A stretch of 64,000 bases of DNA from Chitinophagales bacterium (GTDB lineage Bacteria > Bacteroidota > Bacteroidia > Chitinophagales > UBA10324), in the NCBI GenBank assembly GCA_025057275.1, contig JANWXQ010000059.1, positions 1 to 64,000 on the forward strand, read 5' to 3'. Positions 14,295 through 17,690 of the stretch are shown here, in pieces. The notes below the pieces were generated by a model. That model saw nothing but the letters and a program-made list of their open reading frames with translations. It ran no database searches and was not told the DNA's origin. The stretch's first letter is position 1; the number at the start of each line of letters is the position of its first letter. The position numbers were made by a program, and so were the translations under genes.

Positions 14295-15458
14295 TCAAGC
14301 GAACAAGTCGCGGATTTTTTCAAAAAAAGTTTTTTCGTTTTTAGGAGGCCGTGGCCGGAAATTGGGGGAATGCCGCAGCCGTTCCAGCAATGCAGTTTCC
14401 TCCCGGGTCAGTTCTTTGGGCACCCAAACATTAACGTGGACGAGCTGATCACCGGTGGTATGACTGTTGAGATCGGGAAGGCCCTTGCCGCGCAGGCGGA
14501 AAATTTCGCCTGCTTGTGTTCCGGGCTTGATCCGGATGCGGGCATGACCGTCAACGGTGGGCACTTCCACACTGGTGCCCAGCGCAGCATCAATAAAGGA
14601 AATATGCAATTCGTAGAGCAGATTATTACCCTGCCGGCGCAGTTTTTCATGGGGCTGTTCCTCAATGAGGATATAGAGGTCTCCGGGAGGGCCACCCCGT
14701 TCACCGGCATTGCCTTTTCCGCTGAGGGAGAGCTGCATGCCATCGGCCACGCCGGCAGGAATGTCCACCGTAATGGTTTCTTCTCCCTGTATGCGTCCGG
14801 ATCCTTTACAGGAAGTGCAGGCATCGGTGAGCACTCGTCCCTCGCCATGACAATGCGGGCAGGTGGTGGTGGTGGACATTTGACCGAGAATGGTCTGCGT
14901 CACGCGCCGAATGGCACCGGTGCCGCCGCAGGCTGAACAGGTTTGATAGGCATTCTTGTTTTTGGCGCCGCTGCCCCCACACGTCGGGCAGGAAACCTGC
15001 TTGTTTACTTTCAGCGTCTTGCGTGTTCCTTTGGCGATGTCGGCCAGTGTGAGAGGCAGGGTAATGCGCAGATTGCTGCCGCGGGAACCGGTGCGCCGCT
15101 GGCTGCGGCCGCTGCTGCGCCCAAAGACAAACGATTCAAACGGGCTTTCACCCAGGTTAGAGAAAATGTCGCTGAAATGGGAGAAGATGTCTTCCATGCG
15201 CATGTTGCCGCTGGTGAAGCCGCCATTGCCGGCCACTCCCTGATGACCATAGCGGTCGTACCGGCTTTTCTTCTCCGGATCACTGAGCACATCGTAAGCT
15301 TCGGCCGCTTCCTTGAACTTTTCTTCAGCAGCCTTATTGCCGGGATTACGGTCGGGGTGATACTGCATGGCCACCTTGCGGTAGGCCTTTTTTATTTCCT
15401 CCGCTGTGGCATTGCGGCTTACGCCCAACACTTCATAGTAATCGCGCTTAGAAGCCAT
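14295..15458 (-). CDS. dnaJ: Chaperone DnaJ
   Basis: Type I (class A) Hsp40 co-chaperone, 387 aa from the ATG at 15458 (a GTG three codons earlier is unlikely). Domain order: J domain (about 1-70) with the HPD motif in QYHPDRNPG, Gly/Phe-rich region, zinc-binding domain with four CxxCxGxG repeats ([32 protein letters not shown]), and the C-terminal substrate-binding and dimerisation domain. It stimulates the ATPase of DnaK and delivers unfolded proteins. It lies 9 bp after grpE on the same strand; dnaK is not in the window. Confidence 0.97.
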
Positions 15459-15467
15459 GACTCCCAC

Positions 15468-16118
15468 CTATTTGCCCACAATCACTTTGGCGTGTCGTAT
15501 AATTTTATCGTTGAAGTAATAGCCGCACTCCACCTCATCCACCACTTTGCCGCGTTGCTTCTCGCCGGCCTCAATTTCGCTGATGGCTTCGTGCAGGTCA
15601 GGCGAGTAGGGCTCGCCAACGGACTGCATGGCTTTGAGTCCACGGTTTTCCAGTGCCGTCTTCAGCTTGTGATAAATGAGCCGAACGCCTTCGGTCGTCG
15701 GGTCCTGTTTGGCCTCCATCTGCTTGAGTGCGCGGGTGAAGTCATCCAGTACGGGCAGTAACGAGAGGATGACATCGGAACCGGCCAGGCGCATGATTTC
15801 CATTCGTTCGCGCTGCATACGCTTCTTATAGTTTTCGAATTCGGCATGAACGCGCAGGTATTTGTCCTCCAGGTCGGCCAGCTTCTGCTTCAGGCCGGCA
15901 TTTTGCTCTTCCAGGTCGGCCAGTTGCTTTTTGTATTTATCCTTTTTGCTCAATCCCAGTTGGGAAAGCAAGGAGGCACCGGAGGTTCCGGAATCTTCCG
16001 GTTCTTCCTCTGCGGAGGCGTTACTGCCGTCAGCGGTTGGTACGGATTCCTCGGTCTGACGTGCATCAGTATCCTGCTCATTCAGCAGCTCGTCCGACAA
16101 TTTTTCCTTCTGATCCAT
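15468..16118 (-). CDS. grpE: Nucleotide exchange factor GrpE
   Basis: 216-aa GrpE, the nucleotide exchange factor of DnaK. An acidic, low-complexity N-terminal extension (about 1-60, Glu/Asp/Ser-rich) is followed by a long coiled-coil helix (about 60-110) and the C-terminal beta-wing domain ending in the family signature VVDEVECGYYFNDKIIRHAKVIV. It is first in the grpE-dnaJ pair. A long intergenic region with hairpins lies upstream; I could not place a convincing promoter for it. Confidence 0.96.
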   Translation of the reverse strand: MDQKEKLSDELLNEQDTDARQTEESVPTADGSNASAEEEPEDSGTSGASLLSQLGLSKKDKYKKQLADLEEQNAGLKQKLADLEDKYLRVHAEFENYKKRMQRERMEIMRLAGSDVILSLLPVLDDFTRALKQMEAKQDPTTEGVRLIYHKLKTALENRGLKAMQSVGEPYSPDLHEAISEIEAGEKQRGKVVDEVECGYYFNDKIIRHAKVIVGK

Positions 16119-16238
16119 GGTATGCCTGTAAAATTGGTGCCTGATAAGGCGTGCTCAAATGCTTTGCCATGCTGCTTAATCCGACATTGTGTCAGAATTT
16201 TTTGGTTTCAGCCGCAGTAAAAGTACAATGTGGTCGCG

Positions 16239-16271
16239 CACCAGCAGCAAGTCCGGAGGGTTGCGCTGGTG
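16239..16271. other. Hairpin, 11-bp stem with one bulged A
   Basis: CACCAGC (16239-16245), bulged A, then GCAA (16247-16250) pair perfectly with TTGC (16261-16264) and GCTGGTG (16265-16271) around a 10-nt GC-rich loop. No T-run follows on either strand, so it is not a standard intrinsic terminator. The loop contains TCCGGAGGG, superficially like the SRP RNA apical loop, but the conserved asymmetric bulge is absent. Confidence 0.6.
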
Positions 16272-16419
16272 GTGATTTCGGGGGCGCATTCCGACTCAAA
16301 GCCCGGGCTTGGTTGAATGCATGTTTCTGCCTGATATCCGGATTTGGATTTTGCCGTTTGCTCCGGAAGGTATCCAAGTTCATCAGTTCAAACAGGTCAA
16401 ACATTAACTTCTGTTGTAT

Positions 16420-16443
16420 CTTGCCGCCCGTTTCTCCGGCAAG
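16420..16443. other. Hairpin, 7-bp stem
   Basis: CTTGCCG (16420-16426) pairs with CGGCAAG (16437-16443) across a 10-nt loop. It sits between the larger hairpin and the putative anmK promoter. No T-run follows. Confidence 0.5.
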
Positions 16444-16491
16444 CGCTTCGCAGGCTGGCGAGCTCAGGCGGAGAAACACTAGCGGAAAGAA

Positions 16492-16521
16492 TTGTTGTTT
16501 TCAATAGAAAGAATAGTTTAG
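16492..16521 (+). promoter_or_regulatory. Putative anmK promoter (TTG-N19-TAGTTTAG)
   Basis: TTG at 16492-16494 and TAGTTTAG at 16514-16521, separated by 19 bp, fit the -33/-7 consensus of the phylum with one mismatch in the -7 element. The expected start site is about 50 bp upstream of the anmK ATG at 16575. Confidence 0.4.
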
Positions 16522-16574
16522 CAGCCCTTTACAAAACAGCAAATTACGTTACAGCAATAAATCGAACCATTGAC

Positions 16575-17690
16575 ATGAGGGAATATCGTGTGCTTGGCAT
16601 CATGACCGGCAGTTCACTGGATGGTGTGGATCTGGCGTATTGCATCCTGCGGGAAGACCAACAGCGATGGAGCTATGAAATTGTTACTGCCGAATGCGTC
16701 CCGTTTCCTCCGCTATGGAAGCAGCGTTTGCTCAATCTGGTTTTGCAAAATGCAGTCAACTACCTGAAAGCCGACGCGCATTTCGGTCATTACCTGGGAG
16801 AAACAGCGCGGCGCTTCATCCTGCAAAATCAGCTGGAAGATAAAATAGACTTCATTGCCTCCCACGGGCAGACCATTTTTCATCAGCCGGAAAATCAGAT
16901 GACCAGCCAGATCGGCGACGGTGCTGCCATTGTAGCCGAAACCGGTTATCCGGTGATCTGTAATTTCCGCACGTTGGACGTGGCCTTGGGGGGCCAGGGA
17001 ACGCCCATGGCTCCCATTATTGATAAAATGTTTTTTCCTGAATACAAATTCTGTCTCAATCTCGGCGGCATTGCCAATATCTCTTTGAAAAAGAATGGCC
17101 GCATGATCGGTTACGACATCTGCGGCGCCAACATGGTACTCAACATGCTGTGTGCTTCGGTTGGCCTGGACCTGGACAAAGACGGCGAAATCGCACGATC
17201 CGGCTCGGTGAACCTGCAGGTGATGGAGGAGCTTAACGCACAATGGTATTACGACAAGCCCTATCCCAAATCCATTGGCGGCGGCTGGGTGACCAAGGTC
17301 TTTTTGCCCGTGTTTCGCAAATACCGCCTGAAGCTGGAGGATGCGCTGTGTACTGCCACCGAACACATAGCTGCCCAGATTGGAAAGGATATAAAAAAGA
17401 TTTATATTACAGAAGGCATGGAACTGCGTGATGATGATTCCATGCTGATCACGGGAGGAGGTGTTTTCAACAAGTTTTTGCTGGAACGCATCAACCAGCA
17501 TGTCCCTGTCAGCGTGGTGGTGGCCGACGCACAGACCAGCAAGTTTAAGGAAGCCTTGCTGGTGGCCCTGATGGGTGTGCTGCGGTTGCGCGGTGAACCC
17601 AACATGCTGGCTTCGGTGACCGGTGCCCGTGAAGATTCCTGCGGCGGCGAAATCTATCAGTCGCTGCATCGGCCCTTGCGCGGGGCCTGA
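16575..17690 (+). CDS. anmK: Anhydro-N-acetylmuramic acid kinase
   Basis: 371-aa kinase that hydrolyses and phosphorylates 1,6-anhydro-MurNAc to MurNAc-6-phosphate during peptidoglycan recycling. The N-terminal nucleotide-binding motif GIMTGSSLDGVDLAY and later motifs FIASHGQTIFHQP and GQGTPMAPIIDK are typical. The frame extends upstream to 16344, but the ATG at 16575 (MREYRVLGIMTGSS) gives the usual family length and follows a promoter-like sequence. The next gene begins 6 bp after the stop, making an anmK-SDR-rlmD operon. Confidence 0.94.
   Translation: MREYRVLGIMTGSSLDGVDLAYCILREDQQRWSYEIVTAECVPFPPLWKQRLLNLVLQNAVNYLKADAHFGHYLGETARRFILQNQLEDKIDFIASHGQTIFHQPENQMTSQIGDGAAIVAETGYPVICNFRTLDVALGGQGTPMAPIIDKMFFPEYKFCLNLGGIANISLKKNGRMIGYDICGANMVLNMLCASVGLDLDKDGEIARSGSVNLQVMEELNAQWYYDKPYPKSIGGGWVTKVFLPVFRKYRLKLEDALCTATEHIAAQIGKDIKKIYITEGMELRDDDSMLITGGGVFNKFLLERINQHVPVSVVVADAQTSKFKEALLVALMGVLRLRGEPNMLASVTGAREDSCGGEIYQSLHRPLRGA

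Follow-up and report, generated by a model that had tools for sequence, protein, structure and literature searches.

The functional core of the 456-bp gap between grpE and anmK is, with good confidence, a promoter of the sigma-54 type which is read on the minus strand and serves the heat-shock operon grpE-dnaJ. The rest of the gap is mostly unconserved spacer, with a probable anmK promoter. Sigma-54-type chaperone promoters are already known in related bacteria and the grpE promoter described here adds another; in a limited search, heat-shock gene control in this large bacterial group was found to be little described.

The grpE-anmK gap and the element before grpE

The host genome (G000) is a Bacteroidota genome of 2.48 Mb. 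The gap occupies positions 16119-16574 of the window, i.e. the whole stretch of 64,000 nucleotides analysed, and it is bordered by the divergent grpE-dnaJ genes (minus strand) on one side and by anmK (plus strand) on the other. These coordinates and flanking genes, as given in the original prediction, were confirmed by the ATG codons of grpE and anmK and by Pfam matches. The features are listed below; G001 is the sole same-genus genome compared.

14295-15467, minus strand: dnaJ, downstream of grpE and co-directional with it (Pfam DnaJ and DnaJ_C)
15468-16118, minus strand: grpE (Pfam GrpE, 2.8e-43; ATG at 16118)
16143, minus strand: predicted transcription start, placed from the -12 position, with a 25-nt leader to the grpE ATG
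16155-16159, minus strand: TTTGA, predicted sigma-54 -12 element, in which A replaces the classical C at -12
16165-16169, minus strand: TGGCA, predicted sigma-54 -24 element, from sequence comparison
16183-16186, minus strand: TGTC, second box of the TGNCA pair, predicted at -43 to -40 (comparative match)
16190-16194, minus strand: TGACA, first box of the TGNCA pair, predicted at -51 to -47 (comparative match)
16239-16271, plus strand: bulged-A hairpin of the original prediction, lost in G001
16299-16310, no strand: 12-bp palindrome of the original prediction, lost in G001
16514-16521, plus strand: TAGTTTAG, possible anmK -7 element, within a block kept in G001
16575-17690, plus strand: anmK (Pfam AnmK, 9.7e-63; ATG at 16575)

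The listed start of dnaJ is a GTG, and an ATG is found 9 nt further inside. The gap had been described as having no convincing ORF, which agrees with our results: an ORF of 95 aa on the minus strand and one of 118 aa on the plus strand gave no Pfam match, and a search of 60 genomes with the 95-aa ORF returned, beyond the self-match, nothing better than E 0.07. A hidden gene in the gap was rejected, since the two ORFs have no relatives. No grpE relative was detected in the viral contigs searched.

When the gap was aligned to G001, only short blocks were kept, namely CCGACATTGTGTCAG near grpE, 16413-16426 and 16508-16530. The CCGACATTGTGTCAG block pointed to a motif located shortly before grpE in relatives. 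In the host it forms a 40-bp element (16155-16194, minus strand) that reads TGACA-N3-TGTC, 13 nt, TGGCA-N5-TTTGA and is absent from the original prediction; the full motif on the grpE strand is TGNCA-N3-TGNC-N12-14-TGGCA-N6-TTG. A heat-shock control region had been suggested for the gap, and this suggestion is borne out by the conserved promoter element, although not by the stems on which it was based.

At least 13 of the 15 fixed letters of the motif were present upstream of grpE in 89 of the 96 Bacteroidota loci, which are relatives and thus not independent, and 66 loci scored 15/15. The GrpE protein served to identify the loci, and each region was represented by its highest-scoring position, likewise in the shuffled controls, none of which (0/1920) reached 13; their maximum was 12, and these mononucleotide shuffles preserve base composition alone. 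Outside Bacteroidota 72 of 73 grpE loci were scored, none reached 13 and the maximum was 11. The 96 loci represent 90 genomes (host included) of the 92 with grpE, and six named Bacteroidota loci; G054 and G072 were omitted from the scoring, and G054 was later found to have a site. The gene itself was detected in 21 of the 22 families surveyed. Seven of the 96 loci remained below 13, among them L050, which is a start-calling error. Two genomes that share a genus (g22; L216 and L219) carry a degenerate element upstream of grpE, in which the pair CCGACAAAAGGGTC is followed by TGGCG-N6-TTG. The spacer between TGNC and TGGCA in the 89 sites is 12 nt in 6, 13 nt in 64 and 14 nt in 19 cases.

Promoter class of the grpE element

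The sigma-54 consensus is TGGCAYR-N4-TTGC, and the classical base at -12 is C. In the grpE element the distance from the T of TGGCA to the start of TTG is 11 nt, which is the -24/-12 geometry of sigma-54 promoters. The letters of TGGCA occur in the 89 grpE sites with frequencies of 0.98, 0.98, 1.00, 0.96 and 0.93, the first three being the TGG expected at -26 to -24, and those of TTG with 1.00 each. The G at -13 is present in 89/89 sites, while the -12 base is A at the host grpE; C occupies -12 in a fraction of 0.13 of the grpE sites of the order, yet in most sites of family f25. Since the G at -13 corresponds to 16156, the start would fall at 16143 and leave a 25-nt grpE leader. The rpoN gene (PF04552) was detected in 95 of 98 relatives including the host (E 1.9e-54). 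The absence of rpoN was considered as a contrast and rejected because the gene is near universal in this set. A sigma-70 consensus scan of the region gave no match, as expected for the phylum. We infer that the grpE element is used by sigma-54.

The accessible parts of a study on Flavobacterium psychrophilum report mapped -24/-12 starts at groES-groEL, dnaK, grpE-dnaJ, htpG, clpB and lon, and mutation confirmed there that the -24/-12 motif matters at another operon (PMC9723704). The median leader of that organism is 24 nt, to which the predicted 25-nt grpE leader is close (PMC9723704). The sigma-54 (SM4) promoters of F. psychrophilum share the -24/-12 element with the grpE promoter; the starts were measured there and are predicted here, and the TGNCA pair is not described in the portion of the SM4 text available (PMC9723704). 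According to the accessible part of a second study, sigma-54 promoters are enriched in Bacteroidota before GroEL, GroES, IbpA, GrpE, DnaJ and DnaK, and in Bacteroidia before HSP90 too; it cites a Blattabacterium paper for grpE and groES (PMC12316311). That chaperone cluster comprises the same genes, it was predicted by profiles, and in the part available neither an upstream element nor an activator is named (PMC12316311).

An alternative would be that the grpE element is a housekeeping sigma-A promoter (TTTG at -33, TAnnTTTG at -7) overlapped by a repressor operator, the TGNCA pair, and that heat derepresses it. The TTTG-TTTG spacing does suit sigma-A at many sites, the core of the f25 sites reads TACTTTTG, a perfect TAnnTTTG, and a repressor on the pair, near -45, could block the polymerase. 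At the host grpE, however, the -7 position reads AGCATTTG, which departs from TAnnTTTG, and TA is unconserved at this place in the 89 sites, while TGGCA is conserved in the order instead. The form found before groES, TGGCA-N7-TG[A/C/T], has no TTTG at all, and PMC9723704, in its accessible parts, places these genes under the -24/-12 motif and not under the TAnnTTTG motifs. Sigma-A use of the f25 sites is possible, though it would explain neither the TGGCA of the order nor the groES form, and for the grpE element as a whole the sigma-A explanation is unlikely.

If the sigma-54 assignment is correct, TGGCA (-24) and TTTGA (-12) would be contacted by the sigma-54 form of RNA polymerase, which would stay there in a closed complex. 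Opening this complex would be the task of an AAA+ enhancer-binding protein that most likely sits on the TGNCA-N3-TGNC pair (-51 to -40), and the opening of the grpE promoter would be triggered by protein-folding stress.

Putative heat-shock regulon and candidate activator

A strict pattern of the element has a single match in the host genome, the grpE site. It was found in 63 of 98 relatives, where the reversed control had 0 matches. Among 395 genomes sampled from the whole phylum 54 contained it, while the reversed control had one match; all except four of these 54 genomes belong to the same class. The distinct strict sites examined (65, i.e. 69 locus rows minus the four repeats L291, L303, L304 and L305) are those in the fetched loci, a subset of all pattern matches in the relatives and the phylum, and 65/65 precede heat-shock genes: 47 grpE, 17 htpG and 1 hsp20 (PF00011, 9.6e-21). 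One element is thus found at several heat-shock genes and nowhere else among the 65 sites examined.

A variant, TGGCA-N7-TG, occurs within 150 nt upstream of groES in 20 of 32 loci, the host (L292) and G001 (L293) included, vs 13 of 3200 shuffles. The remaining 12 groES regions have no strict TGGCA-N7-TG form. The 32 loci consist of 30 of the 60 genomes searched, selected as best-scoring, and G000 and G001. In front of the host groES (G000:C32) TGACATTTTTTAGC is followed by TGGCACAGCAAATGC, which lies 76 nt upstream of the ATG; the layout is a weaker version of that of the grpE element and has C at -12.

In the proposed model the TGNCA pair would serve as the activator binding site. This assignment is helped by the absence of another conserved upstream block: the pair was the only one found up to 200 nt above TGGCA, and the 170 nt upstream of the pair held none, so that a second activator site there was rejected. 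The sites in this search were selected by pattern, and it informs only on positions that the pattern leaves free. The form of the pair also resembles the sites of Fis-type activators. The usual sigma-54 activator sites lie at approx. -80 to -150, and the pair (-51 to -40) is much nearer to the promoter. This unusual closeness to the -24 element, and the resemblance of each TGNCA box to the -24 box itself, would favour a different arrangement, in which sigma-54 uses the promoter, the pair binds some other protein or extends the polymerase contact, and the activator works from elsewhere or from solution; we regard this as a serious possibility that falls short of an even chance. NorR-type activators bind GT-N7-AC, as in GTCA-N3-TGAC, and a similar short palindromic form, e.g. 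TGTCA-N3-TGACA, is seen in some of our loci. NorR has several sites farther upstream, while here a single pair is found next to the promoter, and its middle base varies. The CIRCE element of HrcA, TTAGCACTC-N9-GAGTGCTAA, is likewise an inverted repeat at a heat-shock promoter; its sequence differs from that of the pair and it was absent from the gap when inspected by eye. A limited literature search returned no description of the fixed TGNCA pair (-51 to -40) and no activator assignment.

Only two canonical PF00158 activators are encoded in the host genome. One has a receiver domain; the other is receiver-less, starts nearly at its AAA+ domain and carries a C-terminal Fis-type HTH. The gene of the latter sits between miaB (named by eye) and lptE (Pfam LptE). 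Since the HTH is well conserved in both proteins, conservation cannot choose between them. We infer that the receiver-less activator beside lptE is the best candidate to act on the grpE element. Since the pair is conserved across families and the canonical activators are only two, the identity of the heat-shock regulator becomes open to a simple test.

The order miaB, receiver-less activator, lptE was observed in L330 (1456-3155) and in L363-L371, and in nine chosen relatives groES and groEL come next, all on one strand (9/9). These nine were preselected for groES and the activator lying nearby on one contig, so that 9/9 is not a frequency. From three further genomes two activator regions were fetched without groES and one groES region had no activator in the stretch; in the host genome the activator and groES are on separate contigs. 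The gene order ties an envelope gene to a chaperone operon. The F. psychrophilum activator-lptE pair, THC0290_0733/0732, and groES (0729), four locus numbers away, fit the activator-lptE-groES order of the nine relatives (PMC9723704). Three PF00158 proteins are mentioned there and, in the accessible text, the activator is left open (PMC9723704).

An extended form of the model would make the pair the site of one dedicated, promoter-adjacent, receiver-less activator, the one encoded beside lptE. In Bacteroidia this protein would take the role that sigma-32 or HrcA has elsewhere as chief regulator of the heat-shock response, and it would be restrained in trans. This is put forward tentatively and is rather doubtful as it stands. 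If true, it would mean that an activator with no sensor of its own is restrained in trans, e.g. by free chaperone.

Stems, palindrome and the anmK side of the gap

The structures of the original prediction are present in the gap. The 11-bp stem with one bulged A pairs 16239-16250 with 16261-16271 around a 10-nt loop, in which folding pairs two further bases; the 7-bp stem (16420-16426/16437-16443) has a 10-nt loop as well, and the perfect 12-bp palindrome is AAGCCCGGGCTT at 16299-16310. They had been considered far more than expected of spacer, and this part of the prediction failed in the comparison with shuffled sequences. The fold of the whole gap gave z -0.13 on the plus strand (45/100 shuffles equally good) and z -1.16 on the minus strand (12/100), and palindromes of at least 12 bp occur in 37 of 300 shuffles. 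Six 7-bp stems were counted vs a shuffle mean of 2.2 (13/200 shuffles reach 6), three of the six being one stem in overlapping frames, and fifteen 6-bp stems vs 7.85 in shuffles (9/200 reach 15). The best 40-nt hairpin of the plus strand, which spans 16239-16271, is mildly unusual at most: 5 of 150 shuffles equalled it, as did 8 of 100 pieces of the window. A plain palindrome pattern, CTGACANNNTGTCNG with one mismatch allowed, was tried as a regulon signal and rejected: it occurs 13 times in the genome vs 17 for the reversed control, and the near matches are not at heat-shock genes, as judged by eye from the neighbouring ORFs. Only the full composite element is specific.

In order to account for the structured spacer, it could be proposed that it encodes a small RNA, or else a leader with structure such as an RNA thermometer. 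The mildly above-chance hairpin of the plus strand (5/150 shuffles) would speak for it, but the predicted grpE leader is merely 25 nt, the whole-gap folds are ordinary on both strands, and an Rfam scan of the window gave no family at gathering score. The palindrome and the stems are lost in G001, the only relative alignable, in a two-sequence alignment; in the 7-bp stem conservation is limited to the 5' arm and does not extend to the 3' arm. Neither this alignment nor a DNA search of 99 genomes for homologous sequence lent support to a small RNA, and little sequence is shared even with G001 apart from the promoter element and the blocks at 16413-16426 and 16508-16530. The suggested small RNA is unsupported, and a structured RNA of either kind is very improbable. 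The gap also shows that a spacer of ordinary fold energy can hide a deeply conserved switch which is revealed only by comparison.

The two short blocks lie towards anmK. The block at 16413-16426, GTTGTATCTTGCCG, is kept at the matching place of G001 amid otherwise diverged spacer and overlaps the 5' arm of the 7-bp stem; the grpE promoter does not explain it. The block at 16508-16530, AAAGAATAGTTTAGCAGCCCTTT, is conserved with G001 and is probably part of the anmK promoter. It contains TAGTTTAG, which has one mismatch to TAnnTTTG, the consensus given in the accessible part of PMC9723704.
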